Positions 43,836-64,000 of a DNA stretch of 64,000 nt are shown one piece after another (position 1 is the stretch's first letter; the number at the start of each line of letters is the position of its first letter). The DNA comes from Gilliamella sp. ESL0441. Its GTDB lineage: Bacteria > Pseudomonadota > Gammaproteobacteria > Enterobacterales > Orbaceae. Location: assembly GCF_019469185.1 (NCBI RefSeq), contig NZ_CP048264.1, positions 1,178,001 through 1,242,000 of the forward strand, written 5' to 3'. The notes under the pieces were generated by a model. The model ran no database searches and was not told the origin of the DNA. It was given only the letters and a program-made list of their open reading frames with translations. The position numbers and the translations under genes are program-made.

Positions 43836-44604
43836 ACAAGCTGAATTATATGTTTTTAATGATGGAATCAATACATATCGTTATACCAATGGTATGCGTG
43901 AACTAAATATTGATAATCAGACATATAAAAAAGAGTCCATCAATCGCACAGCGATAAAACGGGATGCCGCTATTTCCAAAAATAAAATTGATATAACCAT
44001 GCCAATTACTAATGAAGTCGTGAAATCATGGATAAACCCGGATATCACGAAGCATTTACTTGTTGATATCTATATTCTCGATAAAAAAAATATGACTACG
44101 ATGTCATGGAGTGGGCGTTTAACTCAGACATCAACATCAGAAAAAGAGATGGTGATGACATTTGAATTATTGATTACACGCTCAGGGCAAACTGGTGTAA
44201 ATGAAAAAATTCAGCGTAATTGTCGTTATTCTCTTTATGGCGAACATTGTGGTCTAAATAGAGAGGATTTTAAGGTAAAAGGCACTGTGTTAGCTTATGA
44301 AAATGATATCGTCACGGTTGAATTTGAACGTGAAATTGAAAATGGTTATTTCACGGCAGGTATTTTAAGGACGCCTGAAGGCGAACAGACGTTTATTAAA
44401 GAACATAATCAATCATCAATAGTCCTAATCAGAAAAAATCAGCAATTGTTGGACAATTTAAATAAAGGGATATTACAAATTACGCTGTACAAAGGTTGTT
44501 TAAGAACCCTAAATTCTTGTCATTCATTCAATAACACCATCAATTATGGTGGATTTCCTTATTTACCTTTAGAACCGTTAAATAACGGTAATTCAATTGT
44601 TTAG
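43819..44604 (+). CDS. Minor tail protein of the phage BR0599/DUF2163 type
   Basis: 261-residue protein with the conserved cysteine motifs NCRYSLYGEHCGL and GCLRTLNSCHSFNNTINYGG then FPYLPLEPLN, which are hallmarks of the BR0599 family of tail-tip components (related to lambda gpL). The cysteines may bind metal or an iron-sulfur cluster, as in gpL. It overlaps the previous gene and is followed 9 bp later by the next, so it is co-translated. Confidence 0.78.
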   Translation: MINIFKQAELYVFNDGINTYRYTNGMRELNIDNQTYKKESINRTAIKRDAAISKNKIDITMPITNEVVKSWINPDITKHLLVDIYILDKKNMTTMSWSGRLTQTSTSEKEMVMTFELLITRSGQTGVNEKIQRNCRYSLYGEHCGLNREDFKVKGTVLAYENDIVTVEFEREIENGYFTAGILRTPEGEQTFIKEHNQSSIVLIRKNQQLLDNLNKGILQITLYKGCLRTLNSCHSFNNTINYGGFPYLPLEPLNNGNSIV

Positions 44605-44613
44605 GAGCGAAAT

Positions 44614-44853
44614 ATGTTTTTTTTAATTTCTGCATTAGTTGCTGTTGTTGTTGGAATGGTCGTTGGGATGGTGTCTTCAAAGGGCAAAGCAAATCAACAA
44701 AAAATAGAAGCTGATGAATTTAAAACGGGAACTTCAACAGAAGGAACGGGAATACCCATTGTATTTGGTACCGTTAAGATAACCAATCCAATTTATACCT
44801 GGATTGGAGATAAAAAAACGTCAGCTATTAGAAAAAAAGGTGGCAAAAAATAA
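44614..44853 (+). CDS. Short tail-tip accessory protein
   Basis: 79-residue protein with an N-terminal hydrophobic helix (FFLISALVAVVVGMVVGMVS), then STEGTGIPIVFGTVKITNPIYTWIGD, the IPVVFG...W.GD pattern seen at the start of tail-tip complexes next to J-like proteins. Its stop overlaps the next start by one base (TAATG). Confidence 0.6.
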   Translation: MFFLISALVAVVVGMVVGMVSSKGKANQQKIEADEFKTGTSTEGTGIPIVFGTVKITNPIYTWIGDKKTSAIRKKGGKK

Positions 44854-45071
44854 TGAAAATAATTGTAACCAGAGACGATATGATTGCAGTAAAACAATGT
44901 AGTCGTGGTGGACGGGAGTTTTTTAAACGTCATGGACTCGATTGGAACCAATTTTTGAAAGAAGGAATAGATGCTGAAATTTTAAAATCAACCAATGATG
45001 CAATGGCAAATCAAGTTATAGAACATGCGGAGCGTAGAACATGGGCGGAAGTAAGAAAAAGCAAACTGTAG
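44853..45071 (+). CDS. Small tail-module protein, function unknown
   Basis: 72 residues beginning MKIIVTRDDMIAVKQCSRGG and continuing REFFKRHGLDWNQFLKEGIDAE. Proteins with this CSRG..F...HGLDW..FL..G pattern are common just before tip genes in tailed phages. It overlaps the previous stop and the next start (31 bases), so it is coupled to both. Confidence 0.6.
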   Translation: MKIIVTRDDMIAVKQCSRGGREFFKRHGLDWNQFLKEGIDAEILKSTNDAMANQVIEHAERRTWAEVRKSKL

Positions 45072-47854: not shown

Positions 47855-47862
47855 GAAAAATT

Positions 47863-48693
47863 ATGGCAAAAATAGCAATTATATCTAATAGCACCTCTCG
47901 ACAAGACATCAAGAATGTATTTGAAGGGTTAGGTCACCAAGTTGATTATCTGATAGATGACAATATAACTTATAATCAATTGATGACCTACGATTTAATC
48001 GTATCAACAAACCAATATTCGCGTAAAGAGGTAATTAAACAGTGTGTGGATAATGGTATTCCTGCAATTGTAGCGGAAGGAAATTCATCGTCAGTTTCTT
48101 TAGGTAAAGATTTAGGTATGTTTGATCAAAATGAACATCAAGTTCGTGATTGGAATTACTTAAGACCATTAAAAATATCTTTAATAACACAAAAGATCCC
48201 TAAATTGGGTTGTGCCCCTTATTTGAAACCAACATGGTGTACGTCTTTTCCTCTTTCTTCAATGGCACCTGGGGGTGAAGCACTGTGCGCCTTGTATCAT
48301 GACCGTGATGATTTTATCATTTGTGCACAATTTAAAAAAGGAACGGTCGATAAATATGGGGGAACTTTTGGCGCAAATTGTATTTTTATGTCATTCTTAG
48401 ATCGTGAATATTTAACAAGAAATGCGATAAAAATGCTCGATAATGCTATCAATTTTTGTTTTCAGAATTATACAACCCTATCGGGGAAAGTGGTGGATGA
48501 AACAGATCAACCAATCTCAAGAGAGGTAAAAATATATGATCAGAAAACAGGAGAATTAGTTTCGGAAATAACAAGTAATGAAGACGGTTTATTTTCTGCT
48601 GAAGTATTTTCTGGACAAAGCTACTATGTCATTGCATTTGATAAAGATAATGGAAAGAAAAATGCAGTAATTATAGATAATATCAAAGTTTGA
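47863..48693 (+). CDS. Tail-end protein of unknown function, paralogue of the 48948 gene
   Basis: 276 residues in two parts. The N-terminal 200 start MAKIAIISNSTSRQDIKNVF and look alpha/beta (Rossmann-like), with NGIPAIVAEGNSSSVSLGKDLGMF. The C-terminal 75 (LSGKVVDETDQPISREVKIYDQKTGELVS ... YYVIAFDKDNGKKNAVIIDNIKV, described as residues 205-276) resemble a carboxypeptidase-regulatory-like beta-sandwich. The position straight after the tip gene suggests a fibre or receptor-binding protein. No family is recognised for the N-terminal part. Confidence 0.6.
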   Translation: MAKIAIISNSTSRQDIKNVFEGLGHQVDYLIDDNITYNQLMTYDLIVSTNQYSRKEVIKQCVDNGIPAIVAEGNSSSVSLGKDLGMFDQNEHQVRDWNYLRPLKISLITQKIPKLGCAPYLKPTWCTSFPLSSMAPGGEALCALYHDRDDFIICAQFKKGTVDKYGGTFGANCIFMSFLDREYLTRNAIKMLDNAINFCFQNYTTLSGKVVDETDQPISREVKIYDQKTGELVSEITSNEDGLFSAEVFSGQSYYVIAFDKDNGKKNAVIIDNIKV

Positions 48694-48947
48694 TTAATCA
48701 TAATAATAACAAATCAATATAAGTCCCATAAAATTAACCTATTAAATAATTTTAAATAATACTTAAAACCGAAATTCTAATCTAACCAACTATAACTTCT
48801 CAATTTAACCATTCATTTTATCACGATATTAAAACGACGTTTAGAACTAAAAATCACTTGTACATGCTAATAATAGATTTTCAATGAATGGTTAATTGTT
48901 TTTATCAATCTTTTAAATTTTATAATTACGTTTTTCAGGAGGTCAAA

Positions 48948-49793
48948 ATGGCCAAAATTGTTATATGCAGTGAAGAACTTATAAGAGTACAATCAATGAT
49001 AGATGCACTAAATCCATATCATGACATTACTTTTTGTATAGCAAGCTCGACAGATTACAATGAACAGTATTTATCGACATTCGATCTAATTATGGATTAT
49101 CGAAATGGAACAGAATATACCACATCATTTTGCATTAAAAACTGCTCTAAAAAGGGTATTCCAGTTATAGCGGGTGGAACCAGAAATAGTACGGGCAGTA
49201 TTATGTCACTGGGAATGACCAAAAAACCTATGTATTATTCAAGTGGAAATTTAAATAGGATAATCAATGTTAGCGACGTATTAACCTGTGATAAAAAAAT
49301 CGAAACAGGCGCAATTATCAATAGCGGTGACACGTTTATGATAAGAGAAGATTTAAAAATAGAGTATGGAATCGAAATTTTATCAGTGAATCAGATGGTC
49401 AATGGGGTTTATGATATTAATACCGCCATATTCCGCCAAGGCAGTTTAAATGTCAATGGTGAAGTTTTTGGTAGCGATTGTGCTTTTATCGGTTTTCCTT
49501 TTAGCCGCCCCTTAACGGAAGAAGCAATACAGATTGTCAATGATATTATTAGTTGGCTTGTTAATCGTAAAGATGTTGTCGCACAGGTAAAAGATGAAGA
49601 GGGTAACCTTTTATCGCATTACGAAATTCAGCTTTGTTTAAGAAAAACGGGAGAAGTCATGATGACTTATACCACAGATGAAAATGGTCAAGTGAGTTTA
49701 AGAATAAGACCTAATCATGAATATTATGCCGTGGCCTTTGATCAAGCAACCGGTAATAAAAATGCCGCTATTATAGATAATATTAAGGTTTGA
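48948..49793 (+). CDS. Tail-end protein of unknown function, paralogue of the 47863 gene
   Basis: 281 residues with the same two-part plan: N-terminal MAKIVICSEELIRVQSMIDA, GIPVIAGGTRNSTGSIMSLGM, and a C-terminal domain ending YYAVAFDQATGNKNAAIIDN then IKV. I place the start at the ATG at 48948, which has AGGAGG 7 bases upstream, rather than at 48888. A 254-bp gap without a gene separates it from the first paralogue. Overall similarity is low in the N-terminal half and high in the last 25 residues, consistent with diversification of a shared fibre scaffold. Confidence 0.6.
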   Translation: MAKIVICSEELIRVQSMIDALNPYHDITFCIASSTDYNEQYLSTFDLIMDYRNGTEYTTSFCIKNCSKKGIPVIAGGTRNSTGSIMSLGMTKKPMYYSSGNLNRIINVSDVLTCDKKIETGAIINSGDTFMIREDLKIEYGIEILSVNQMVNGVYDINTAIFRQGSLNVNGEVFGSDCAFIGFPFSRPLTEEAIQIVNDIISWLVNRKDVVAQVKDEEGNLLSHYEIQLCLRKTGEVMMTYTTDENGQVSLRIRPNHEYYAVAFDQATGNKNAAIIDNIKV

Positions 49794-50557: not shown

Positions 50558-52153
50558 ATGCTAAAAAAACCAAGAAAAAAATTAATTTGTGATTTCCCCA
50601 AAGCCAGTTCAGCCGTGGAAACCCCGTCTTCAAGTTGTTTAAAAAAATTTATCATTAATTTCAGAAGACCTGACAACATTAAGCAAAAAAATAATGTTCC
50701 CTATGATGGTGAATATGGGTTTGATTGGTTACGAGATGAATATATCTATCCGATTGAAATGGTTTATAACCGATTTGGTGTGAATTTGGGGAAATACTTA
50801 CCCGTATGTCTTGAACCTTTACGAATTCGTCAAGAATATTTGAAAGATGTAAAAAATCCCATAAAACCTTATAAAAAGGATTACTATCCTGCTTGGCTAT
50901 CCATTTTTGCTTGCGGAGTAAAATCCAATGCTGCTTCTAATATGCATAGTAAAGGTGTTGATTTAAACTTGCAATTAGATGAAATTGATGTGATTCATAA
51001 CGATGAAACTGAAATTATTTTAGAATCAAATAATCCTTTTTTAAAAATAAAACCGAAAACAATTCCCATATCAGAATTTTTAAAAACAAAGCGTAGAACG
51101 AGATATCTAAATGAGTTTGGTAGTGCAAAGATCAATTATTATGAACTTGAAAATGCCGTAAATGTCCTTTGTCATGGCGGTTTACTAAAAGAACATGAAG
51201 AGATAAAAGTATTTGCTAAATTAGGTCAATGCAAGGTAGAAGTTGGTAAACTTATGGTTTATAAAAATAGCCATGTACCTAAAATGAAAATTGGTATAAT
51301 CGATGTAATAACAGAACGTGATGACGAAGGCAATAAGATCCGACCGATAGATCAAATCATATCACTAAGCAATTTATTGAAACGTCATGCATTTAATCAA
51401 GCACTAATACAGCCTGAAATAATTGTTCAGGAACTTGATTTATTGGCGTTAAAAAATCAACAAGATGACTACGTTGACGGTTTTTTTAAGCAAATTGAAG
51501 ATCGAAAATTTATGAATGGTGATTATGATAAGTTGTTAGGATTTTCAGTTGTAAGGGGACTTTTAATCCAATTGAACCATATTTACGATGATGAGATTTC
51601 AAAAATTAATAATTCAGAACAAAAAAACAATACGCCAAATTTTTATGAACATGAAGATATTATTCCAACTTTTTTAACCACATTAAAACCTTACTTTGGT
51701 ATAGTTAATGGGGTAACAAGCTTTGACAAAAATAAAAGTCTTATTCTTGAAAATAAAGTTTTCCCAAGTAAGCCATCAAATCGTGCGGATATTATTTTTT
51801 TTAAAAATGCATTAAACAAAAATCACACAATTATTCATGAAGTAGGTCATGCATTATATTTAGAACATATATTTGATACTGAAGAAGCAAAACCTGGAGT
51901 GTTACGTACATTTAGTTGGTTCAATGTTGATTTTCCGATAACTAATGCTCTCATTCAACCTAAACATTATACTTTTTATCAAGGTTATACTGATAATGCA
52001 ATGGATTATACGTACAAATTTAAAAATATGAAGGATGAAAATAATAAACTTAATTTTGAAGAAGTATCAAGTAAATTTGAAAAGCAAATGAATTCATTTT
52101 ATAAATGGCAATGGGATATTATGAGATCATATCCTTTTTTAATAAACGAATAA
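50558..52153 (+). CDS. Metzincin-like zinc metallopeptidase, possible secreted toxin or tail cargo
   Basis: 531 residues. Near residue 427 is HEVGHALYLEH, the HExxHxxxxxH zinc motif of metzincins, followed at residue 482 by the Met-turn NAMDY. The N-terminal 300 residues do not resemble a classical protease prodomain. They contain YDGEYGFDWLRDEYIYPI, a FDWLR motif I recall from the N-termini of polymorphic-toxin or type VI effector proteins, but this is memory and weak. There is no signal peptide. It lies about 760 bp downstream of the tail module on the same strand with no immunity-like partner visible. The next gene belongs to the lipid operon. Confidence 0.65.
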   Translation: MLKKPRKKLICDFPKASSAVETPSSSCLKKFIINFRRPDNIKQKNNVPYDGEYGFDWLRDEYIYPIEMVYNRFGVNLGKYLPVCLEPLRIRQEYLKDVKNPIKPYKKDYYPAWLSIFACGVKSNAASNMHSKGVDLNLQLDEIDVIHNDETEIILESNNPFLKIKPKTIPISEFLKTKRRTRYLNEFGSAKINYYELENAVNVLCHGGLLKEHEEIKVFAKLGQCKVEVGKLMVYKNSHVPKMKIGIIDVITERDDEGNKIRPIDQIISLSNLLKRHAFNQALIQPEIIVQELDLLALKNQQDDYVDGFFKQIEDRKFMNGDYDKLLGFSVVRGLLIQLNHIYDDEISKINNSEQKNNTPNFYEHEDIIPTFLTTLKPYFGIVNGVTSFDKNKSLILENKVFPSKPSNRADIIFFKNALNKNHTIIHEVGHALYLEHIFDTEEAKPGVLRTFSWFNVDFPITNALIQPKHYTFYQGYTDNAMDYTYKFKNMKDENNKLNFEEVSSKFEKQMNSFYKWQWDIMRSYPFLINE

Positions 52154-52314: not shown

Positions 52315-53313
52315 ATGAAAAAGAATTTTGAATTTTTGCCTGTAAAAATAATTGCTTCAGCGATAGCTTTGCCTAATCTGAAAGTAACATCAGAACAAAT
52401 TGATAAAAAACTTAATAAGTCAATTGGTTATTGTTACAAAAGGTCTGGTATAGAGTATCGATATCATGCGGATTTGCAAATTCAACAATCAGACTTGGCG
52501 GCACAAGCTATTGCTAATGCTTTGAATTGTCACCAGATTTCTCCAGATTCGGTCGATTTACTCATTTCTGCAAGCGCTATACCTGTTCAAGCCCTTCCAT
52601 ATACTGCATCTCATATTTTACAAGCGAGCTGTTTACCACAAGGTATTGCCACTTTAGATATAAACGTTAGTTGTGTTAGTTTTCTCGCTGCATTAAATAT
52701 CGCAGCCAGTTTATTGAATTCTAATACTTATCGACGTATTGTCATTGTATCTGCTGATTTGGCATCACGAGGCTTAGATTGGCAAGATGAAGAGTCGTCA
52801 TTTATTTTTGGCGATGGGGCAGCTTGTGTCGTTGTGGAAAAAGGTGATGGGCAAAGTGGAATAATAAGTTATCTTCTAGAAACATATACAGACGGTATAA
52901 ATTATTGTGAAATAAGAGCAGGAGGAACACGCTGTAACTTTCATACTGGTTTAGAAAATGATGATTTATTATTTCATATGCAAGGTAAACCATTGTTTAA
53001 AATGGCATCTGCAATTGTAGAACCTTTCATTGAACGTTTACTTGCTTTGGCAGATATGTCAATAAATGACATTGCGACAGTAATACCTCATCAAGCAAGC
53101 CATCTTTCTTTAGAACATATGCGAAAACGATTAAATCTTTCAGAAGAAACAATAATCAATATATATCGTTTTAGAGGCAATCAAGTGGCAGCATCAATAC
53201 CAAGTGCTTTGCATGAAGCTATCATTACTGAACGATTTAAAGCTGACTTACCTGTCATGCTTATAGGTACTGCAGCGGGATTAACTTTAGGTGGAATGAT
53301 TTTATTACCATGA
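52315..53313 (+). CDS. 3-oxoacyl-ACP synthase III-like (FabH/OleA-type) enzyme
   Basis: 332-residue thiolase-fold enzyme that condenses acyl units. The catalytic triad is intact: Cys120 in DINVSCVSFLAALNIA, His259 in VIPHQASHLS and Asn289 in RGNQVAASIPSAL. SSFIFGDGAACVVVEKG and LMLIGTAAGLTLGGMILL-like end segments fit. It is shorter on the substrate side than FabH and lacks the usual fab gene neighbours; it heads a seven-gene cluster of lipid-modifying enzymes, so it probably starts a specialised lipid. It could be a FabH-like or OleA-like condensing enzyme; the sequence does not decide. It overlaps the next gene by 4 bases. Confidence 0.82.
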   Translation: MKKNFEFLPVKIIASAIALPNLKVTSEQIDKKLNKSIGYCYKRSGIEYRYHADLQIQQSDLAAQAIANALNCHQISPDSVDLLISASAIPVQALPYTASHILQASCLPQGIATLDINVSCVSFLAALNIAASLLNSNTYRRIVIVSADLASRGLDWQDEESSFIFGDGAACVVVEKGDGQSGIISYLLETYTDGINYCEIRAGGTRCNFHTGLENDDLLFHMQGKPLFKMASAIVEPFIERLLALADMSINDIATVIPHQASHLSLEHMRKRLNLSEETIINIYRFRGNQVAASIPSALHEAIITERFKADLPVMLIGTAAGLTLGGMILLP

Positions 53314-54326
53314 GATTTCTTGTTACCGGAGCTACGAGTGGTTTAGGCCGAAATGCTGTTGAATGGCTTTTAAAACAGGGTTTTGAAGTTCATGCTACTG
53401 GTCGGAATAAGTTTGTAGGAAAAGAACTTATGGACTTGGGAGCACGTTTTACTGAACTTGACTTAGTTGATGCCGACGAACATGATTTGCGTAATTTATT
53501 GAAAGATTGTGATATTATATGGCATTGTGCCGCTCTTTCATCACCTTGGGGTAAATATAAATGGTTTTATCAGGCAAATGTGGCTGTAACAGCTAAATTA
53601 GCCTATTGGGCTGGAAAACTGGCTATTAAACGATTTATACACGTATCAACGCCTTCTATCTATTTTGATTTCCAATCACATATCGATATTCCTGAAACTT
53701 ATTTGGCAAATAAATTTGTAAACCATTATGCTGCAACAAAATATTTGGCCGAACAAAATATTCAGCAAAATGTAATTAATTTTCCTAATACGACTTATCT
53801 TATTTTACGACCTCGAGGCATTTTTGGACCACATGACCGAGTCGTATTCCCTAGAGTTTTAGCTCAAATAAAAAGTCGTAATGGTGTTTTACCGTTACCC
53901 AATGGGGGACGAGCATGTATAGACCTAACTTTTGTTCTGAATGTTGTCTATGCTTTATTTCTTGCAACAACTAATAATTCTTTGTCATCCGGTGAAGTAT
54001 TTAATATCAGTAATCAGCAACCTTCTTATCTTTATGAAATGACTGAAAAGTTATTCAAAGATAATCTTAAAATGGACTATAACATCCGATCAATACCATA
54101 TTCTTTTTTGTATAGTATTGCGACTGTATTAGAATTGAGTTCTAAATTCACTGGTCAGGAACCGTTGTTAACTCGATACAGTGTCGGTACCATTTATTTT
54201 GATATGACGCTGAACCAACAAAAAGCAATAAATCGACTTGGCTATAGACCAATGTATACTCTAAATCAAGGCTTTGAAATAACCGCTAATTGGTTACGCA
54301 ACAATTTGGATGACTTGAATGGCTAA
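53310..54326 (+). CDS. NAD(P)-dependent epimerase/dehydratase (3-beta-HSD/OleD-like)
   Basis: 338-residue extended short-chain dehydrogenase. The nucleotide-binding TGATSGLGRNAVEWLL is at residues 6-21. The catalytic YxxxK is YAATK, and RPRGIFGPHDRVVFPRVL matches the substrate-binding region of 3-beta-hydroxysteroid dehydrogenase/OleD-type enzymes. ATGA overlaps at both ends (4 bases upstream, 8 downstream) couple it to its neighbours. The likely role is reduction of a 3-oxo lipid formed by the synthase. The substrate is unknown. Confidence 0.8.
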   Translation: MRFLVTGATSGLGRNAVEWLLKQGFEVHATGRNKFVGKELMDLGARFTELDLVDADEHDLRNLLKDCDIIWHCAALSSPWGKYKWFYQANVAVTAKLAYWAGKLAIKRFIHVSTPSIYFDFQSHIDIPETYLANKFVNHYAATKYLAEQNIQQNVINFPNTTYLILRPRGIFGPHDRVVFPRVLAQIKSRNGVLPLPNGGRACIDLTFVLNVVYALFLATTNNSLSSGEVFNISNQQPSYLYEMTEKLFKDNLKMDYNIRSIPYSFLYSIATVLELSSKFTGQEPLLTRYSVGTIYFDMTLNQQKAINRLGYRPMYTLNQGFEITANWLRNNLDDLNG

Positions 54327-55125
54327 AGTGACGACATTTGAAGCAGGTTATTGTACCCATCTAGCTTGTATGGCTCAAAAAGGGGCTGGATTTAATGTTT
54401 GTAAATTTCCAGCGCGTGCTTGGCTAATCGAAATAGGCATCCATCGTTGGTTATGGGATACTGGTTATGCTGACCATTTTGAACGTTATACTCAATCAGG
54501 TATTTTCAAGCTTTACCGCAAAGTTACTCCTGTTTATTTAAATGAAGGGGAATCTTTAAAACAACAATTCTTATCTAACGGTATCGACTTAGCAAGTATT
54601 GAGCATATTATTTTATCCCATTTTCATGGCGATCATATTGCTGGATTAAAAGATTTTTCGTTTAGTTCATTCATATGCTCACACAAAGGATGGCAAAAGA
54701 TTAAAACATTACGAGGTTTTTCTGCTTTAATGCAAGGCTTTGTGCCAGATTTAATACCTGATAATTTTGAGCAAAAACTGACGTTTATCGAAAGCTTTGA
54801 AAAATGTAATTTACCGTTGGATTTAGCTCCATTTACAGAAGGATATATCGTACCCAATAGTCAAAAACAGATAATACTAGTTGATTTACCAGGTCATGCA
54901 ATTGGTCATATTGGTGCATTTATTGAAACGGATCAAGGTTGGCTCCTATTAGCAAGTGATGCAGCATGGACACCCGCCAATTATAAGCAACTTAAAGGAC
55001 CGGCACAATTAGCTAATTTTATTATGGATGATCCCATTGCCTATTATCAAACGCTGTCCAAACTTAACCAATTATCACTTAATCCAAATGTGACCATTTA
55101 TTTAAGCCATGAGGGATATTTATGA
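54319..55125 (+). CDS. Metallo-beta-lactamase-fold hydrolase
   Basis: 268-residue MBL-fold protein with the zinc motif SHFHGDHIAGL (H101, H103, D105, H106), a GHAIGHIGAF His, SDAAW for the bridging Asp, and a terminal LSHEGYL. The layout resembles lactonases and thioesterase-like members. In this cluster it could hydrolyse a lactone or thioester intermediate; that is inference. It overlaps its upstream neighbour by 8 bases and the downstream gene by 4 (ATGA). Confidence 0.82.
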   Translation: MAKVTTFEAGYCTHLACMAQKGAGFNVCKFPARAWLIEIGIHRWLWDTGYADHFERYTQSGIFKLYRKVTPVYLNEGESLKQQFLSNGIDLASIEHIILSHFHGDHIAGLKDFSFSSFICSHKGWQKIKTLRGFSALMQGFVPDLIPDNFEQKLTFIESFEKCNLPLDLAPFTEGYIVPNSQKQIILVDLPGHAIGHIGAFIETDQGWLLLASDAAWTPANYKQLKGPAQLANFIMDDPIAYYQTLSKLNQLSLNPNVTIYLSHEGYL

Positions 55126-56414
55126 GTTTATTTAACCTGTTATGGTCTTATTTTAAAACTAAGCGGTTAAAATTTAAAACTCGTCAAGCGTTGGAAGCTT
55201 ACCAATTAAAGCAATGGAAAAAATTCAAAAATAAAGTATTAATTAAAAGTTCGTACTTTAAACGTTTTATTGATCTTCCTTTAGAGCAATGGCCTTTGAT
55301 GGATAAGCAAATCATGATGACGTTTTTTGATGATATGAATACTGCTCAACTCAAATGTAAACAGTTGATAGCTTGCGCAATTGAGAGCGAATCTTCAAAG
55401 GATTTTAGTCCAAAAGTAGGGAAATTTAGTGTTGGTCTTTCATCTGGTACTTCAGGTCAACGAGGAGTCTTTGTGGTTAGTCCTAAAGAGCAATCAATCT
55501 GGGCTGGGGGAATGCTTGCCAAAATGTTACCTCGTGGACTTATGGCTAAAGAGCGAGTTGCTTTATTTTTAAGATCGGATAATAATCTTTATCAAAGTGT
55601 AAATAATCGTTGGCTAACGCTAAAATATTTTGGTCTATTTGAAAATTTTCAATTATTGTTGTCTTCCCTTATAGAGTTTAAACCGACTATTATTGTCGCA
55701 CCGGCTCAAGTACTAACAACAATTGCACACGAAAAACTAGCGAAAAATTTACCGATAAATCCATATCAAGTCATCTCAGTTGCCGAAGTATTGGAACCTC
55801 AAGATAAGCAGGTTTTGAAAAAAGCATTTGAACGGATTGGTGAAGTGTATCAGGCAACAGAGGGATTTTTAGGGGCAAGTTGTCCTAATGGTGTATTACA
55901 TCTGAATGAAGAGTTTTTACTTGTTGAACAAGAATGGCTGGATGAAGAGCGTTTTATTCCGATTATTACTGATTTTACTCGACAAACTCAGCCTATAATT
56001 CGCTATCGCTTAAATGATGTGTTAGTAAAACGAAAAGAACCTTGTTCTTGCGGTCGTCAAGGCATGGCAATTTCACATATTGAAGGGCGTCAAGATGATC
56101 AGATCATTTTAAATGACGGGCAGGGAAAACCTATCACCATCTTCGCAGATTATTGCAGTCGTATTATTGCAAACACCTTACCCTTAACTTGTGATTATCG
56201 CTTAATACAACGCTCATCAACTGTTTTCGAATTGATTGGATGCTGTGAATCACTGTATTTAGAAAAGTTAAAAAACCAGCTAATGAAACATTTTGAGCAG
56301 CAAGGAGCAAATACTGAACATTTAAGTTGGAATATCAATGCTGTTAACAAACTTCCCGATGAATTTAACCAGTTTTTGCTAAAGCGCCGTCGAATACTTC
56401 GTCAAAGGCATTAA
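55122..56414 (+). CDS. Adenylate-forming enzyme related to F390 synthetase
   Basis: 430-residue ANL-type enzyme. The phosphate-binding loop is VGLSSGTSGQRGVFVVSP. Other features are YQATEGFLGASCPNGVLHLNEE and IIRYRLNDVLVKRKEPCSCGRQGMAISHIEGRQDD, a pattern of the phenylacetate-CoA ligase/F390 synthetase-like subgroup often labelled 'putative adenylate-forming enzyme' (TIGR02304-type). A CxCG motif may bind zinc. It activates a carboxylic acid as an adenylate, then forms a thioester, amide or ester. It starts inside the previous gene (ATGA) and is 1 bp before the PAP2 gene. Confidence 0.8.
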   Translation: MSLFNLLWSYFKTKRLKFKTRQALEAYQLKQWKKFKNKVLIKSSYFKRFIDLPLEQWPLMDKQIMMTFFDDMNTAQLKCKQLIACAIESESSKDFSPKVGKFSVGLSSGTSGQRGVFVVSPKEQSIWAGGMLAKMLPRGLMAKERVALFLRSDNNLYQSVNNRWLTLKYFGLFENFQLLLSSLIEFKPTIIVAPAQVLTTIAHEKLAKNLPINPYQVISVAEVLEPQDKQVLKKAFERIGEVYQATEGFLGASCPNGVLHLNEEFLLVEQEWLDEERFIPIITDFTRQTQPIIRYRLNDVLVKRKEPCSCGRQGMAISHIEGRQDDQIILNDGQGKPITIFADYCSRIIANTLPLTCDYRLIQRSSTVFELIGCCESLYLEKLKNQLMKHFEQQGANTEHLSWNINAVNKLPDEFNQFLLKRRRILRQRH

Positions 56415-56415
56415 T

Positions 56416-57009
56416 ATGAGTGAGCTACTTAAACGTTTAGCATATTTAGTAAGTGGATGGACTTGTGTTGGTTTAGTTTATTGTGGCTCGCTTCTTTTAC
56501 AAGGTAAGCCTACTTTAATAAACTATAGTCAAATTGATTTACTCATTCCTTTTAATTATCACGTTGTATGGATATATCTCTCTTTTTTTGTGATTATTCC
56601 ATTTGGCTTTTTTTATGCGCCTTATACAAAAGTTCGTTGGATGTGTTTTAGTTTCATTGCAATTGCATTCATAACAGGTTTATGTTTTATAATTTATCCT
56701 ACAGTGATAATGGTACCGCCTGTTGATACTTCCTTTTCATTAAGCAGCAAAGTATATCAGCAATTAATTGAATTTGATGTCAATCAGAACTGTTTCCCTT
56801 CATTACACGTTTCATTAACAACAATTGCTGTTTGGGGGGTATTAAATATAAAACATCCTATAATCACAATTGTAATGATAATCTGGGGGACAATGATTTG
56901 TCTTTCAGTTATCCAATTACGCCGTCATGTATTTATGGATTTAGTTGGCGGTATCATGCTAGCCATCATTTTAGGATGGTTGATCCACTGTTGGTTGAAA
57001 AAACATTAG
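56416..57009 (+). CDS. PAP2-superfamily membrane phosphatase/phosphotransferase
   Basis: 197-residue membrane protein with about five or six helices. PAP2 motifs are NCFPSLHVSLT (His in the second motif) and RRHVFMDLVGG (third motif, His and Asp); the first, KxxxxxxRP, is not evident. PAP2 enzymes dephosphorylate lipid phosphates or transfer head groups. In the operon it could trim or attach a head group on the new lipid. The gap to the next start is 29 bp. Confidence 0.75.
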   Translation: MSELLKRLAYLVSGWTCVGLVYCGSLLLQGKPTLINYSQIDLLIPFNYHVVWIYLSFFVIIPFGFFYAPYTKVRWMCFSFIAIAFITGLCFIIYPTVIMVPPVDTSFSLSSKVYQQLIEFDVNQNCFPSLHVSLTTIAVWGVLNIKHPIITIVMIIWGTMICLSVIQLRRHVFMDLVGGIMLAIILGWLIHCWLKKH

Positions 57010-57038
57010 GAAATGAATTTATAAAAGGAATTGAGAAT

Positions 57039-58133
57039 ATGGAATTAATCGTACCTATCATTATAATGTTAATCATGGTTACAGCAGAAGCTTTGATACT
57101 ACAATTTGTCAAAAAACAGACTGTAAATTGGACAGATATTATTTTTAATTTAAATTCAGGTCATTTGGTATTATGGTTGTTTCGCGGTTTAGAATTAATC
57201 TGTTATCAATATGTTTTTTCACACTTTAGTTTTGATTTGTTTATAAATATTCCTGATTATTTCCTTTGGATCTTTGCTATTTTAGCTTGGGACTTAGGCT
57301 TTTATTGGGAACACCGCTTAATTCATAAAATTCCTTTTTTATGGGCTGTGCATATTGTTCATCATCAAGGTGAGCATTTTAATTTATCTTTAGCGGTTCG
57401 TAACTCTTGGTATTCTTCATTAACTTCAATTCCTTTTTTTGCTATATTAGCAATTATTGGTGTGCCAACACCTGTTTTCTTTGCCGTTTCATTGTTTCAT
57501 TACAGCATTCAATTTTTTAATCATAATGCGTTAACACCCAAATTAGGAATATTAGAATATATTTTTGTCACTCCTCAGCATCATCGAGTACATCATTTGA
57601 AAAACGAGTATTATTCAAATCATAATTTTTCTGGCTCATTTATTTTCTGGGATAAATTATTTGCCAGTTTTGCACCGCACCCTAAAGATGAAATTAATCA
57701 TTATGGCAGTTCAGGAGTAATTTCTTTAAATCCTTTTTGGGCGAATAATCTACCTTTCATGAAATTGCTGAACATTAAATTTCGTCCGATAGAAAATCGA
57801 AGTTATTGTATTTCAAATCTAGCTTTAGTCACTGGAGGACTACTGCTGTTTGCCTTGACTATTTGTTATATCTATGACTATGGATATGGGTATCATGATG
57901 TAAATTTAGATCAATATTTATTATTTATAGTTCTAGTGCTCGGTACGATAGCATTAGGGGGAGTATCAGAAGGTAGAAACTGGGGAATTTATTGTTGGTT
58001 ATGTGTTAGTTGGTTTTTACCACTTTATTTTATTTTACATCAACATTGGGGCGCTTGTTATTGGCTAATATGTATGTGGCTAATAGCGATGCACAGTATT
58101 TTTATTTTGATAATGTGGTTTAAAAACAAATAA
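57039..58133 (+). CDS. Sterol desaturase/fatty acid hydroxylase-family membrane oxygenase
   Basis: 364-residue di-iron membrane oxygenase. The histidine clusters are WDLGFYWEHRLIH, AVHIVHHQGEHFN and TPQHHRVHH, the FA_hydroxylase (sterol desaturase superfamily) pattern. Hydrophobic helices surround them. I chose the start at 57039 (MELIVPIIIML), with AAAAGGA about 10 bp upstream; the frame is open further upstream inside the PAP2 gene but that is another gene's coding sequence. It probably hydroxylates or desaturates an acyl chain. Confidence 0.85.
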   Translation: MELIVPIIIMLIMVTAEALILQFVKKQTVNWTDIIFNLNSGHLVLWLFRGLELICYQYVFSHFSFDLFINIPDYFLWIFAILAWDLGFYWEHRLIHKIPFLWAVHIVHHQGEHFNLSLAVRNSWYSSLTSIPFFAILAIIGVPTPVFFAVSLFHYSIQFFNHNALTPKLGILEYIFVTPQHHRVHHLKNEYYSNHNFSGSFIFWDKLFASFAPHPKDEINHYGSSGVISLNPFWANNLPFMKLLNIKFRPIENRSYCISNLALVTGGLLLFALTICYIYDYGYGYHDVNLDQYLLFIVLVLGTIALGGVSEGRNWGIYCWLCVSWFLPLYFILHQHWGACYWLICMWLIAMHSIFILIMWFKNK

Positions 58134-58170
58134 CTAGTAGCAAAGTTATAAGCTGTCGAGAGATAATGGT

Positions 58171-59271
58171 ATGCGAAAATTAACCTCATTACAATTCGAT
58201 GATCAGCAAGATCAAGCATTACTTAAAGATATTCAGGATGCGGCAACAAATTATTTAATCAATAATCATGATCATCGTTATGCAGATGTTGGTATGTTTG
58301 CTAAGTTAATATTATTGAGCCTTTTAACTTGTGGGTTTTATGTTGCATGTTTATTGTGTGAACACGCCTTATGGTACTTTGTAATCTATTATTTTTTATT
58401 TATTTTTATGGCAATGCTTTTAGCGGTTAATGTTGTTCATGATGCTTCACACAATGTTTTTTTTAAAACACCTCAAGCAAATCGATGGCTAAATCGAATT
58501 ATTACCATACCGCTAGGTATTGATCCAGATTGTTGGCAAGTAAGACACGTTGCTCAACATCATCCTTATACTAATATCGAACACTATGACTTTGATATTG
58601 ACTATAATGGTTTTCTTAGACAAACACCTTATCAACGCCGTCATTGGTATATGCGTTATCAACAGTATTATTGGCCTTTTATTGCAGCAATGACCTTTCC
58701 TACAATTATTTGGTTCTTTGATTGGCAAGATAGACTGGGAATTAAATTTGAAAAAAATAAATTTACTGAAAATGGTGCTTATAATGGACTAGTTGGTTGG
58801 TTGTTATTTTTTATCCCTAAAATGTTACATTTAACTATCACGATTATTTTGCCGATTTTAGTCTGTGAATGGTTAAACTTAGGGATAATGTTGATTATAT
58901 ATTTGCTAAGCCAAATGTTCTCTTCAATGATATTTGTGATGTTATTACTTGGTACGCATTGGGCTAAAGCGACATTTTATCCCATTCCCAAAGACGGAAA
59001 AATGCAACATAGTCAAGTTAGGCATACGTTTGATACCTCGCTAAATTGGCGTTTAAAGCATCCGTTATTTGAGTATTGGATTGGTGGCTTAAATTTACAT
59101 TTAACTCACCATCTTTATCCAGGATTTTGTCATCGTCACTATTTTGAGTTAACGATTATCATTCATCAAATAGCTAAAAAGCACGGTATCCCTTGTCAGG
59201 ATATTACCTTATCAGAACTCTTTTATTACCAACAAAAATTTTTAAAAAATATGGGTAAAAAGCAGCAATAG
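58171..59271 (+). CDS. Membrane fatty acid desaturase
   Basis: 366-residue acyl-lipid desaturase. The three histidine boxes are HDASHN (residues 90-95), HVAQHHPYTN (126-135) and HLTHHLYPG near residue 310, typical of the acyl-lipid/linoleoyl-CoA desaturase family. About four membrane helices are visible. The 37-bp gap from the preceding gene keeps it in the operon. The final gene of the cluster, it suggests the product carries a double bond. Regiospecificity cannot be read. Confidence 0.85.
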   Translation: MRKLTSLQFDDQQDQALLKDIQDAATNYLINNHDHRYADVGMFAKLILLSLLTCGFYVACLLCEHALWYFVIYYFLFIFMAMLLAVNVVHDASHNVFFKTPQANRWLNRIITIPLGIDPDCWQVRHVAQHHPYTNIEHYDFDIDYNGFLRQTPYQRRHWYMRYQQYYWPFIAAMTFPTIIWFFDWQDRLGIKFEKNKFTENGAYNGLVGWLLFFIPKMLHLTITIILPILVCEWLNLGIMLIIYLLSQMFSSMIFVMLLLGTHWAKATFYPIPKDGKMQHSQVRHTFDTSLNWRLKHPLFEYWIGGLNLHLTHHLYPGFCHRHYFELTIIIHQIAKKHGIPCQDITLSELFYYQQKFLKNMGKKQQ

Positions 59272-59386: not shown

Positions 59387-60901
59387 ATGAAACATTGTCT
59401 ATTATTTTTGACGATATTAAGCTGTTTTAGTACTTCCAATTTTGCAAACGCCAATGATAACGAACGTTGCCAAACATTAGTAAACCTTAAATTTGATGAT
59501 GCTAAAATTATCAAAACAGAACTTATTGCCGGTCATTTTACACCGCCGTCTAATTTAGCTGATTCATTGCGCAATGCGGATACAAAAGAGATATCTCAAC
59601 TTCCTCAGCTTTGTCGGATTGAATTGGTGATTCAACCTAAGATCAACGTTGAAGTTTGGTTGCCAACTCAATGGAATCATCGTTTACAAGCGATTGGAGG
59701 AGGGGGATATGCTGGTTTTATTCCTTTTGACGAATTAGCTGTTGCAGTTCAAGGAGGGTACGCAGCAATGGGAACAGATACCGGACATCGTGGGAATCTG
59801 TTTGAAGGTGATTTTGTATTCAAGAATAATCAGTTACAAGCCGATACGATAGCGGATTTTGCTTATCGTAGTGTTCATGAAATGACAATTAAAACTAAAC
59901 ACATTATTCAAGCGTATTATGGTAAACCAGCTGACTATTCTTATTGGAATGGTTGTTCAACGGGAGGGCGACAAGGATTAATGGAGGCGCAAAGATTTCC
60001 CGCTGATTATGACGGTATCTATATTGTGGCACCAGCAATTCAATGGGACAAATTTATCCCTTCTGAATTGTGGCCTCAAGTTGTTATGCAAAAGGAGTTA
60101 GGGCATCCGATTGATACTCATAAACTTATAATGTTACGAAAGGCAATAATTCAATTAGCTGATGAACAAGATGGAATTAAAGACGGTATAATCAATGATC
60201 CAACAGCATTAGAAATTTTTGATAACTTTTTAAAAGAACATAGTTTTAATGATGCTGAAATTATAGCATTACGAAAAATTTGGCAAGGTCCGACGAATCA
60301 ACTTGGAGAATCCTTATGGTTTGGTGTGGAAAAAACCGCACCGCAAGAGGCACTTGCTGGTAGTGAACCATTTCCAATCCCTGTTGATTATCTAAAATAT
60401 TGGATAGCACAGAATCCAAATCTTGATTGGAAAAACATGGACTACCAAAGCTTTGTCGATTATTTTAATGAATCAGTCGATTTATTCAGACCTATTATGG
60501 GTACGGATAATCCAGATTTGAGTCAGTTTAAAAAATCTGGTGGAAAAATGATTATTTGGCATGGTTGGGATGATCGTTTAATCCCACCAAAAGGGACGAT
60601 TCATTATTACAATCACGTTGTAAAATTAATGGGGGGACAGAAACACACGGATGAATTTGTTAAGCTTTATATGGCACCTGGCGTTGATCATTGTAATGGT
60701 GGTGATGGTGCAGACCAGATCAATGGTTTTGAATCACTGGTAAATTGGGTCGAAAAACAACAACCGCCAAAAAACCTAACAGCCAAAAAAATAGAGAATG
60801 GTAATCTTACTTTGCAACGACCATTATGTGCATATCCACAAAAAACAGTTTACAAAGGTGAGGGTAATACCAATAATCCTGCTAATTTTGAATGTCAGTA
60901 A
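59387..60901 (+). CDS. Secreted tannase/feruloyl esterase-family protein
   Basis: 504 residues with a signal peptide (about 22 residues, LLFLTILSCFSTSNFANA). The mature protein is a tannase/feruloyl-esterase (PF07519-type) alpha/beta hydrolase: GNGCSTGGRQGLMEAQRFPADYDGIY-like nucleophile Ser and adjacent Cys, acidic residue in GWDDRLIPPKGT, and His in GVDHCNGGDGADQI. The family cleaves gallate or hydroxycinnamate esters from plant polyphenols or cell walls, which fits a plant-diet insect-gut bacterium. The Ca-binding DEQDGIKDGIINDP loop is present. It has its own promoter region (116 bp after the desaturase). Confidence 0.85.
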   Translation: MKHCLLFLTILSCFSTSNFANANDNERCQTLVNLKFDDAKIIKTELIAGHFTPPSNLADSLRNADTKEISQLPQLCRIELVIQPKINVEVWLPTQWNHRLQAIGGGGYAGFIPFDELAVAVQGGYAAMGTDTGHRGNLFEGDFVFKNNQLQADTIADFAYRSVHEMTIKTKHIIQAYYGKPADYSYWNGCSTGGRQGLMEAQRFPADYDGIYIVAPAIQWDKFIPSELWPQVVMQKELGHPIDTHKLIMLRKAIIQLADEQDGIKDGIINDPTALEIFDNFLKEHSFNDAEIIALRKIWQGPTNQLGESLWFGVEKTAPQEALAGSEPFPIPVDYLKYWIAQNPNLDWKNMDYQSFVDYFNESVDLFRPIMGTDNPDLSQFKKSGGKMIIWHGWDDRLIPPKGTIHYYNHVVKLMGGQKHTDEFVKLYMAPGVDHCNGGDGADQINGFESLVNWVEKQQPPKNLTAKKIENGNLTLQRPLCAYPQKTVYKGEGNTNNPANFECQ

Positions 60902-61161: not shown

Positions 61162-64000
61162 TTAAAAAAACAATTTATTATCTTGTTTAGCGAATAAGTA
61201 TTTGGCTAACACTCCTCTCGGTGATTTTGAAGAAGGATCCAATATATCCATATCACCAAAGACTAAAAAGCTATCTTTTGCCCGTGAAATTGCCACATTC
61301 AACATGCTCGGTTTATCATCAATAAAATTACCATTGGCATGTTTTGAGTAAACTGTTGAAAAGATAATGATCTTTCTTTCTGCTCCCTGTAAGGAGTGAA
61401 TTGTACCGACAGTTAATGAATCCTCTTCATCATCAACGTTGATTCCACATTCTGACTCCTTAATCACTCTCTTTATTTCTGCAACTTGTGCTCCAAAGGG
61501 GGTAACAATGCCAACAATTTTATTTATTGGTTCTTTATACTGATTTTCTAAAATGTTTTTATTTTCGACAAGCCATTTCGCAATAACTGTCGCCTCCAAT
61601 TTATTGAAACGACTGCCGGTATGGGCCTTTTGACAGACACCATCAATATGCAAATAACCTAACGCCGGAAGGTTTGCTTTTTCAGGTGAGCTACCCCGCA
61701 TTGGTTTGAGTTTTCCTTTATAGACTAATTCGTTACAAAAACCAATGATTTCATCGTAACATCGGCGATGCTCATATAAGAACATTCCGGGCTCCATATC
61801 TGGATCATAATGATAATTGGAAGCTTGTTGTGCAATTCTCATCACACTACCGAAGGATGCCGTTTTTCCTAGTTTTTTAAGATGCTCATACTCCTCTTCA
61901 ATATCTGAACTGCAAATAATTTTAGCCTTTTGCAAATTACCAATATCGACTTTAGGAGGGACAGACCATATAGGTTCAATTTGGAATGTATCACCAATAA
62001 CCAGTGCTTTTTTACTTAAAGAAAATGATGCCCCTGCAACCTCGGGTAATACCTGACCAGCCTCATCCACAATAAGTAAATCTGCAAAGCTATATAAGTA
62101 ATTTTTCTTATATTCTGCTCCGGTGTAGATAAATTTAGCTGGTAACATAAAAAATGTGGAAACAATACAGGGTGTTAACTTCATACGTAAATGCCAACGC
62201 TTTTTAGTTGGTGCAGCACCATTTTTTCTTTTCCAATTTTCTAGGTCTGGAAGCAGCTCTTCCATATCCATTAACCAACGTCCTTCCCAATAATGGGTTG
62301 TCAGTAAGAATACATGAAAGCGAATTTTAATATCTGTAAGCTTATCAACTTGAGTGAATGTTATTTCTTGGTCTTTATCAGTTATACCCAAAGGCTGTAA
62401 TGCAATATGCCAATCATTCAAAGATTGATTTAACTTTAAAATAATATGATCTATCTCTTTGAGCGTTTTTTGATTTTTTTGTATTGTTAGTTCGAGTGTG
62501 TTAAGTTTATTTTCAACAAATTGGGAAATACTATTTATCGTTTGCCATTGTTGTTTTTGTTCGGCCGGCCATATTTTTTTAAGGTGAAGTTTGGCGTTTG
62601 ATAAGCGTTTTTGAGCTACTGCCGGTATCCATGAAAATAGTGGAAGCCATATGCTTTCATTCGCAAGATATTGTAGCCAAGATGTTTCCACATTTTGCCA
62701 AAGACTTTTGCTTGCTTGTTCAGTTTGTAACTGTTGATCATATTTATTTTTTGTATCTGTTAGAGAATCTCCATAAAGCTGCTTTACCTCTTGGCGTAGG
62801 TTGGATAAGTTTTGCCATGATTTTTCAATATATTCTAATTTATTCGCTTCTTTTTTTAATGCTTGGTGGAGTTTATTTACGATATCTTTGACAGAGCAAT
62901 CTTTTAAATCTAACTCAGGGAAGGCTTGTAGCGCACAATTTATATAGTGTTGTTTTGCTTTTTCATAGTATTGTTGAGTTTCAATTTGAGTAAAAAAAGA
63001 TTCGGTTTGATATGTTTTTTCAGCTTTCTCTGATTTACTTCGAGAAGGGTAATAGGCACCAAAGCTAGCAATATCAGGTAACCATCTACCTGCAAAAACG
63101 CCTTCTCCTATAGAAAAGTCTTTCCCAAACGCATCTATAACGTTAGTAACGGCTTGATTGTTGGTGGAAGCAGCTACAATGACGGGAGGTTCACTTTCAT
63201 CCAGTGCATGTTGTGCCCATATTGAGGCCACCACAGAAAGTAGCATGGTTGTTTTTCCTGTTCCGGGTGGGCCATTTACTGCTAATATTTCACCATTTTC
63301 AGTACTTAACAAATGATTCAATGCATCTCGTTGCGCATCTGCTAAAGGAAATTGATCACCTGAGTGAGCCAACCGTTTTGAAAAAAGACTATTGTCTGCT
63401 AAACAAGGTTGTTTCTTCGTTGAATGTATTGAGGCGAATTTGCTAAAAAGAGGGATGTCATCTGTAGAATCACCTAACTTGTCATATAAAGAAACTATGT
63501 GCATAGCTGCATTTTTGATAACATCTTTTTTGATGATATAGCCGTAATTTAATGACTCAAAAGTATTATCACTTTCAAGCCAATCCTTAGCGATGGCTTT
63601 AAGCAGTGAATCACAATCTTTTAAATAGGTTTTCCAAGCTACGGTATATTCTTCTTCTGTTAATTCACAATTTCCTTGCTCATCTTCCTGATAATTAATA
63701 CCCGACACAATATTAGAGGTTAAATAGCGGTCAAGGTTATCTACCGAACCTACTGAAAATGATCCCTTTACCAGTGGCTCTAAAATATCACGAGATATAA
63801 TAGTTTCATTGTTCAAGGGGTATAGTCTGCCATTTTTTGCTAATAATGCATTGGTTGCTACTGGTACAACAAACTCAGGAATATTTTTTTTGGCAAAAGT
63901 ATGTTCAATTATATTTCGATAAACTTTAGGTCTTAAAACGACCTCAATAATTTTGCGATCTTCTGGCTCATTTTGAAAAAGTTGTTGAGTTAATTCACTG
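61162..64000 (-). CDS. Large superfamily 1 (Upf1-like) helicase, 5' end beyond the window
   Basis: The frame is open without a start to the window edge; residues upstream of 63816 (TTG) continue as LAKNGRLYPLNN and further to SELTQQLF, so at least 945 residues are encoded. Helicase motifs are Walker A VNGPPGTGKTTML, Walker B LLIVDEAGQV, motif III VIGDTFQIEPIW, motif IV FLYEHRRCYDE, VGIVTPFGAQV, motif V SLQGAERKIIIFS and motif VI LNVAISRAKDSFLVFGD. This is the AAA_11/AAA_12 SF1B group. A long coiled segment (about residues 260-480) splits the helicase core. Such proteins occur in defence islands and in housekeeping, so the role is open. Confidence 0.85.
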   Translation of the reverse strand, partial: SELTQQLFQNEPEDRKIIEVVLRPKVYRNIIEHTFAKKNIPEFVVPVATNALLAKNGRLYPLNNETIISRDILEPLVKGSFSVGSVDNLDRYLTSNIVSGINYQEDEQGNCELTEEEYTVAWKTYLKDCDSLLKAIAKDWLESDNTFESLNYGYIIKKDVIKNAAMHIVSLYDKLGDSTDDIPLFSKFASIHSTKKQPCLADNSLFSKRLAHSGDQFPLADAQRDALNHLLSTENGEILAVNGPPGTGKTTMLLSVVASIWAQHALDESEPPVIVAASTNNQAVTNVIDAFGKDFSIGEGVFAGRWLPDIASFGAYYPSRSKSEKAEKTYQTESFFTQIETQQYYEKAKQHYINCALQAFPELDLKDCSVKDIVNKLHQALKKEANKLEYIEKSWQNLSNLRQEVKQLYGDSLTDTKNKYDQQLQTEQASKSLWQNVETSWLQYLANESIWLPLFSWIPAVAQKRLSNAKLHLKKIWPAEQKQQWQTINSISQFVENKLNTLELTIQKNQKTLKEIDHIILKLNQSLNDWHIALQPLGITDKDQEITFTQVDKLTDIKIRFHVFLLTTHYWEGRWLMDMEELLPDLENWKRKNGAAPTKKRWHLRMKLTPCIVSTFFMLPAKFIYTGAEYKKNYLYSFADLLIVDEAGQVLPEVAGASFSLSKKALVIGDTFQIEPIWSVPPKVDIGNLQKAKIICSSDIEEEYEHLKKLGKTASFGSVMRIAQQASNYHYDPDMEPGMFLYEHRRCYDEIIGFCNELVYKGKLKPMRGSSPEKANLPALGYLHIDGVCQKAHTGSRFNKLEATVIAKWLVENKNILENQYKEPINKIVGIVTPFGAQVAEIKRVIKESECGINVDDEEDSLTVGTIHSLQGAERKIIIFSTVYSKHANGNFIDDKPSMLNVAISRAKDSFLVFGDMDILDPSSKSPRGVLAKYLFAKQDNKLFF

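Follow-up and report, generated by a model that had tools for sequence, protein, structure and literature searches.

What does the seven-gene operon of Gilliamella sp. ESL0441 make, and which of its genes belong together in other bacteria? The operon occupies positions 52315 to 59271 of a 64,000-nucleotide stretch of contig NZ_CP048264.1 (positions 1,178,001 to 1,242,000, forward strand), which was analyzed as a whole and is here called the window. Its genes, A to G, encode in order a ketosynthase, a reductase, a hydrolase, an adenylate-forming enzyme, a PAP2-superfamily protein, a membrane oxygenase, and a fatty acid desaturase. An original prediction, made from the letters of the window, had proposed that they make an unnamed modified lipid by a logic resembling that of head-to-head hydrocarbon or β-lactone pathways. 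We find that A, B, C, and D form a co-inherited core with intact active sites, which is paired with different add-on genes in different bacteria. The operon product is probably a modified lipid. Tentatively, we read the system as a modular lipid pathway, in which the core would make an amphiphilic hydroxylated backbone and the add-ons would finish it.

A conserved core and its add-ons

We surveyed 110 related loci, comprising 3 annotated records, 20 genome stretches, 7 further plasmid records, and 80 stretches from an alignment-based search of GTDB representatives. That search returned at least 563 confirmed relatives of D among at least 595 candidate stretches, of which the best 80 were kept; a single-sequence scan of genome contigs had given no matches. 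The loci were not de-duplicated by genome (in our locus numbering, L034 and L065, for example, are one genome). Kept outside the survey were a second Escherichia coli copy (L010), L013 (D without the core), L057 (no annotated ketosynthase), L054, L055, and the short loci L001 to L008 and L015 to L033. Among these short loci, L004 is the window, L005 to L008 are weak matches, L019 and L033 were not extended (D of L033 has 5 stops), and the rest are covered by L034 to L053.

All four core genes are present in 107 of the 110 loci and contiguous in 104; L012, L046, and L059, which are among the 107, have an ATP-grasp gene between A and B. A full core is missing from L119 and L122, in which A was not detected (L122 has a G-like gene in its place), and from L124, whose contig begins 160 bases before D. 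The complete set of E, F, and G occurs in 68 loci, 66 of them with the full core. The conserved seven-gene block, which the original prediction had proposed to seek in other genomes, was found there: the whole order A to G of the window recurs in 63 loci, with G upstream in four others. This association of A to G is far beyond chance.

The original statement that two membrane oxygenases and a PAP2 protein are added to the first four genes holds for the window's sub-type, but E, F, and G are just one of at least six add-on sets with which the core recurs. The other add-ons include an ATP-grasp gene (10 loci, 9 of them with a GNAT gene), GT21 (7 loci, five without E to G and two together with them), DUF3419 (3 loci), a divergent sulfotransferase (3 loci), and a nonribosomal peptide synthetase-like protein on the same strand as the core (2 loci). 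Ten loci hold only A to D among the genes sought, the contig ending less than 400 bases after D in two of them (L066 and L109). A glycolipid-like sub-type (L084:9309-13207 and relatives) was seen in five loci, from Buttiauxella, Mangrovibacter (two), Leminorella, and Citrobacter, where the core is followed by a second OleD-like reductase, a GT21 enzyme (HpnI-like), a 194-aa protein, and a GT1-like enzyme.

Across 100 loci, the pairwise distances of the four core genes are correlated (r = 0.93 to 0.96; highest shuffled value, 0.21), with shared species history contributing to the correlation. On a quick tree of 75 concatenated cores, which carries a long-branch warning, the add-on label changes 15 times, where the minimum is 8 and the shuffled mean is 29; inheritance thus accounts for most of the add-on distribution, alongside gains, losses, or exchanges. 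Overall, the pattern suggests one backbone with exchangeable finishing chemistry. Elsewhere, GT21/HpnI, BtaA-like DUF3419, and sulfotransferases decorate hydroxylated lipids, and the add-on families suggest a core product carrying a hydroxyl or carboxyl group able to take a head group.

Affinities of the ketosynthase

Residues were counted over distinct rows, using the best match per locus at a minimum identity of 30% for B, F, and G and 25% for E; rows that contained stops or were of aberrant length were dropped (three for A and one each for C, F, and G). The catalytic triad of A is present in 102 of 102 rows. When a profile of 16 core A proteins was searched against the PDB, MxnB scored 314 bits and CorB 299, followed by the best FabH (260), PqsD (171), and OleA (~112). 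This preference for MxnB and CorB is not a general one, since a genuine OleA used as query (from L146; 683 bits to 3row) ranked FabH, at 89 bits, above CorB (51) and MxnB (42). In a 42-row tree, the core A proteins form one group (support, 88/64) that joins MxnB and CorB (92/92) apart from five FabH sequences (98/97), while OleA sits on a very long branch. Motifs common to core A, MxnB, and CorB and absent from two aligned FabH chains are Q-x-x-P (102/102 core rows), C-x-S-F (Ser in 92/102), and a Gly-Gly-[Thr/Ser] block. By profile and tree, a position of core A closer to MxnB and CorB than to FabH has moderate support.

The base of OleA, Glu117, offers a further comparison. According to the available text of PMC4578411, it corresponds to E105 of PpyS and is replaced by Val in MxnB and CorB; in the alignment described in the available text of PMC7064751, OleA proteins have Glu followed by Pro in all but two cases. 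Aligning core A with the OleA of L146 showed that, out of 102 rows, 95 have Leu at this position and 7 have Ile, with Pro next in 102/102, and OleA-type condensation was rejected as the leading mechanism on this basis. By the argument that the available part of PMC4578411 makes for MxnB, chain joining here, if any, should use a β-ketoacyl partner with an acidic α-carbon. In the accessible portions of two further papers, MxnB, an enzyme with two chain tunnels, fuses two β-ketoacyl chains in vitro (PMC5724707), and MxnB and CorB are counted among very few known chain-fusing systems (PMC12304814).

Enzymes B to G

Proteins of the operon were assigned to families with Pfam and NCBIfam models, and the original family calls agree with the matches obtained (ACP_syn_III, Epimerase/3Beta_HSD, Lactamase_B, TIGR02304, PAP2, FA_hydroxylase, and FA_desaturase). 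No database family names a product, in line with the description of the pathway as unnamed. B had been called OleD-like: two OleD models are indeed its best curated matches, but at 149 and 139 bits against cut-offs of 580 this is resemblance only. S113, Y140, and K144 of B are present in 107/107 rows, and its best PDB match is a sterol-4-alpha-carboxylate 3-dehydrogenase, an enzyme that, like OleD, handles a β-hydroxy or β-keto acid. The seven metal ligands of C occur in 106/106 rows. Lactonase models (4-pyridoxolactonase and N-acyl homoserine lactone lactonase) all score below cut-off with C, the best being 4-pyridoxolactonase (59 bits; cut-off, 325), and lactonases are the best of its 14 PDB matches, among which PqsE does not occur.

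D lies well over the cut-off of TIGR02304, "F390 synthetase-related protein." Residues S107, G109, S111, T246, E247, D299, R323, D326, and K421 are present in 108/108 rows, and among the residues listed only T110 (107/108) and G112 (93/108) vary. The nearest solved sequences are PaaK-type ligases. Family scans gave no AMP-binding match of the OleC type, so the original statement that the adenylating enzyme is not OleC stands. While the TIGR02304 name assigns no reaction, the place of D as fourth gene of a conserved core supplies a reaction context.

In E, N125, the PSLH motif, H171, and D175 are found in 73/73 rows and R170 in 72/73; among 32 members scanned, PAP2_3 matched all and PAP2 matched 31. 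Eight of nine listed histidines of F are present in 70/70 rows (H181 in 59/70), as are eight histidines of G in 67/67. G is the sole FA_desaturase match in its whole 2.75-Mb genome. At the limits used, E, F, and G have no sequence relative in the PDB.

Proposed pathway and alternatives

In the modular pathway that we tentatively prefer, A would join two acyl chains, at least one of them a β-ketoacyl thioester, by the chemistry of MxnB and CorB or, less likely, would extend a single chain. B would reduce the β-keto group to a hydroxyl, C would hydrolyze either the thioester or the sort of lactone that arises from MxnB-type fusion, and D would activate the freed acid as an acyl-adenylate or acyl-coenzyme A (acyl-CoA) for transfer to an acceptor, together yielding the amphiphilic hydroxylated backbone. 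In the Gilliamella window and in E. coli, F may hydroxylate and G desaturate an acyl chain, and E may act on a phospho-group, by removal or transfer. Other lineages would instead decorate this backbone with sugars, sulfate, an aminocarboxypropyl group, or amino acids. The hydroxylated, unsaturated lipid with a modified head group originally envisaged is a plausible product. A more specific proposal, which we regard as unlikely, is that A to D make an undescribed class of membrane lipid backbone, neither glycerol- nor sphingoid-based, in which two chains are fused by an MxnB-type ketosynthase and bear lineage-specific head groups (phospho, sugar, sulfate, homoserine-like, or amino acid). If true, one scaffold would underlie a whole family of lipids, including one in a minority of E. 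coli. The core with its varied add-ons offers a genome-mining handle to such a possible family of undescribed lipids.

Several observations weigh against the modular pathway. The operon contains no carrier protein. As a single-sequence query, A of the window gave 156.5 bits to MxnB, 141.2 to FabH 2ebd, and 140.1 to CorB, which places FabH level with CorB. Having Leu or Ile in place of the OleA Glu fails to discriminate between MxnB, which has Val, and FabH, which has Phe. Support for joining the core to MxnB and CorB is moderate (92/92, with 88/64 for the core), in a tree that holds five FabH sequences and one OleA and neither PpyS nor DarB. E is equivocal, with a phosphoinositol dihydroceramide synthase model and an undecaprenyl-diphosphatase model each matching 11/32 members, at E-values no better than 1.8e-4, and neither the transferase nor the phosphatase model matching E of the window. 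Plasmid loci without an annotated ketosynthase, outside the 110, carry D only (L013) or an MBL (metallo-β-lactamase)-fold gene and D (L057). Finally, different add-ons suggest rather than demonstrate a shared acceptor, and several could act on ordinary diacylglycerol.

The best-surviving alternative is a one-chain pathway, which we consider doubtful: a FabH-like, decarboxylating A would add malonyl-acyl carrier protein to acyl-CoA supplied by D, B would reduce the product, C would release a β-hydroxy acid, and this acid would join a lipid modified by E, F, and G. PqsA, PqsD, and PqsE act in a comparable way on anthranilate in the Pseudomonas quinolone signal (PQS) pathway, a precedent for combining a ketoacyl synthase III (KASIII)-type enzyme, an MBL-fold thioesterase, and an adenylating enzyme. 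The profile scores of FabH, its parity with CorB when the window's A is queried alone, the Leu at the OleA-Glu position, which fits a decarboxylating enzyme, and the proximity of D to PaaK-type ligases, which make acyl-CoA, are all in its favor. However, MxnB and CorB outscore every FabH chain with the profile and group with core A in the tree, and C matches lactonases best, with PqsE absent from its matches.

We think it quite improbable that the product is not a membrane lipid but a diffusible molecule serving as signal or antibiotic (an alkyl-pyrone or a butenolide, for example), with E to G tailoring it. The nearest solved ketosynthases by profile do make α-pyrone antibiotics, and the core shows a patchy distribution in the genus sample and signs of horizontal transfer in its tree. 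Nevertheless, the block at the annotated E. coli locus includes no gene for a regulator, receptor, or exporter, and three membrane enzymes of lipid families belong to the main sub-type. 

An Ole-type route, with non-decarboxylative head-to-head condensation as by OleA, OleD-type reduction, β-lactone formation by D instead of OleC, and C as a substitute for OleB, leading to a β-lactone, olefin, or 2-alkyl-3-hydroxy acid, is highly improbable, for although A, B, an adenylating enzyme, and a hydrolase recall the gene content of OleABCD and OleD models rank first for B, the OleA base is Leu or Ile in 102/102 rows, OleA scores well below MxnB, CorB, and FabH with the core profile, B falls far under the OleD cut-off, D lacks an AMP-binding match, and a BLAST comparison (E, 1e-3) with a region holding genuine oleA and oleD (L146) matched only A (22%) and B (27%), with none for D. 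The head-to-head hydrocarbon or β-lactone logic of the original prediction is weakened by these results. In the tree comparison with OleA that had been suggested, core A groups with MxnB and CorB.

Xenorhabdus "irlbacholine," considered as a possible known product, was dropped when no relevant paper was found in open PubMed Central text. The same open text gave no description of the seven-gene block, although subscription journals or other names may hold one. An F390-synthetase-annotated gene is mentioned in a fatty-acid cluster of D. psychrophila, in a ladderane context, in the available text of PMC2649909.

Distribution and E. coli carriers

TIGR02304 exceeds its cut-off in 4 of the 24 genomes sampled from the genus (one of them being the source of the window), 21/394 genomes of the order, and 7/398 genomes of a phylum sample that includes the window's own genome and others of its order. 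The best 80 D relatives come from genera including Gilliamella, Snodgrassella, Pseudomonas, Serratia, Pectobacterium, Providencia, Xenorhabdus, Erwinia, Ralstonia, Burkholderia, Cupriavidus, Janthinobacterium, and Chromobacterium. Gilliamella-type cores (L034 to L036, L066, and L129) group with Neisseriaceae assemblies in a quick tree (Shimodaira-Hasegawa-like approximate likelihood ratio test, 100), which suggests either transfer between bee-gut symbionts or a binning error in metagenome assemblies. The large Pseudomonas plasmids pMPPla107 (L013) and pBASL58 (L057) carry a TIGR02304 gene with no annotated ketosynthase.

In E. coli LF82, the complete seven-gene block, in unchanged gene order and with overlaps of 4 to 23 bases, is located between narI and the rttR/tyrT region. 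DNA of the LF82 block matches 672 of 5,426 complete E. coli genomes (12%), a collection that represents the species unevenly; 671 of the matching genomes carry at least 80% of the block. Identity at the best place is at least 99% in 102 genomes, 95 to 99% in 568, and 90 to 95% in 2. Carriers include LF82, NRG 857C, ABU 83972, and E2348/69, which we take to belong to phylogroup B2. A stretch of strain CFT073 did not contain the site of the block and was set aside. A record labeled as an E. coli plasmid (L010, NZ_CP141085.1) includes the block within a narK-to-tdk stretch that looks chromosomal and may be a chromosome fragment or misassembly. Given the fatty acid desaturase and the hydroxylase, both membrane enzymes, that the block encodes, what is usually assumed about E. 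coli lipids may fail for carriers. K-12 lacks the block and has just 539 bases from narI to rttR, holding the small open reading frame (ORF) ychS; with the site known, the product can be sought by heterologous expression in K-12 and lipid profiling.

Operon layout and genomic neighborhood

The tandem arrangement originally described, with ATGA overlaps and short gaps, is confirmed: seven plus-strand ORFs fill the operon exactly (Table 1). A/B and C/D overlap by 4 bases each (ATGA) and B/C by 8 bases, and the gaps are 1 (D/E), 29 (E/F), and 37 (F/G) bases. The start of F was set at the ATG at 57039, a longer version in the ORF list having a TTG start that falls within E. Judged from sequence, the seven genes are one intact biosynthetic operon. 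Its G+C content is 34.1%, compared to 33.9% for the window, and recent import by foreign composition was discarded, there being no sign of it. Promoter-like sites (33; shuffled mean, 36.1) and terminator-like sites (6; shuffled mean, 4.6) were at chance level and were not used.

Table 1. Genes of the Gilliamella sp. ESL0441 operon, in window positions
Gene	Predicted product	Length (aa)	Coordinates	Strand	Basis
A	Ketosynthase III-type, MxnB/CorB-like	332	52315..53313	+	ACP_syn_III domains; triad C120-H259-N289
B	Extended short-chain dehydrogenase/reductase	338	53310..54326	+	Epimerase/3Beta_HSD; best curated models OleD, below cut-off
C	MBL-fold hydrolase, lactonase-like; candidate thioesterase or lactonase	268	54319..55125	+	Lactamase_B
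D	TIGR02304 adenylate-forming enzyme, PaaK-like	430	55122..56414	+	528 bits; cut-off, 252
E	PAP2-superfamily membrane protein (PAP2_3 group); phosphatase or phosphotransferase	197	56416..57009	+	PAP2
F	FA_hydroxylase (sterol-desaturase family) membrane oxygenase	364	57039..58133	+	FA_hydroxylase; OlsE model below cut-off
G	Membrane fatty acid desaturase	366	58171..59271	+	FA_desaturase

Directly upstream of the operon, a 531-aa protein (50558-52153) matches no Pfam family above cut-off; it shows weak similarity to Peptidase_M10/M43 and contains an HEVGHAL motif. Further upstream lie phage-tail-like genes (within 42657-49793), including DUF2460 (42657-43835), Phage_BR0599 (43819-44604), and a gene that combines a Phage-tail_3 domain with a VWA domain (45041-47854). 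A Tannase/feruloyl esterase family protein is encoded directly downstream (59387-60901), followed by a minus-strand AAA_11/AAA_12 helicase (61162-63816) with below-cut-off similarity to helicases of the antiphage systems PLuB and ProA.

Comparison with known systems

The block shares with OleABCD a KASIII-type enzyme, an OleD-like reductase, an adenylating enzyme, and a hydrolase. In contrast, the core lacks the OleA Glu, its adenylating enzyme belongs to TIGR02304, and its hydrolase has the MBL fold rather than the α/β fold of OleB. On the three features tested (Glu117, the OleD cut-off, and OleC/OleB-type enzymes), the block is not a member of the Ole pathway. PqsA, PqsD, and PqsE bring an adenylating enzyme, a KASIII-type enzyme, and an MBL-fold thioesterase into one pathway, a combination resembling that of this operon; C, however, is lactonase-like, PqsE is not among its matches, and no quinolone partner genes occur in the operon. 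D is a clear member of the NCBIfam family TIGR02304, with 528 bits over a cut-off of 252 and K421 conserved in 108/108 rows.

The ketosynthases of myxopyronin and corallopyronin synthesis, MxnB and CorB, are like A in their rank as best profile matches, in shared motifs, in the C-H-N triad, and in the hydrophobic residue that replaces the Glu of OleA and PpyS (available text of PMC4578411). MxnB serves large polyketide synthase (PKS) assembly lines and makes an α-pyrone, whereas A stands with a reductase, a hydrolase, and an adenylating enzyme and no PKS. Lipid head-group enzymes, namely PAP2_3/AUR1-type transferases, GT21, and BtaA-like DUF3419, represent the same families that are found among the add-ons of the core. 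Known members of these families act on diacylglycerol, ceramide, or hopanoids.

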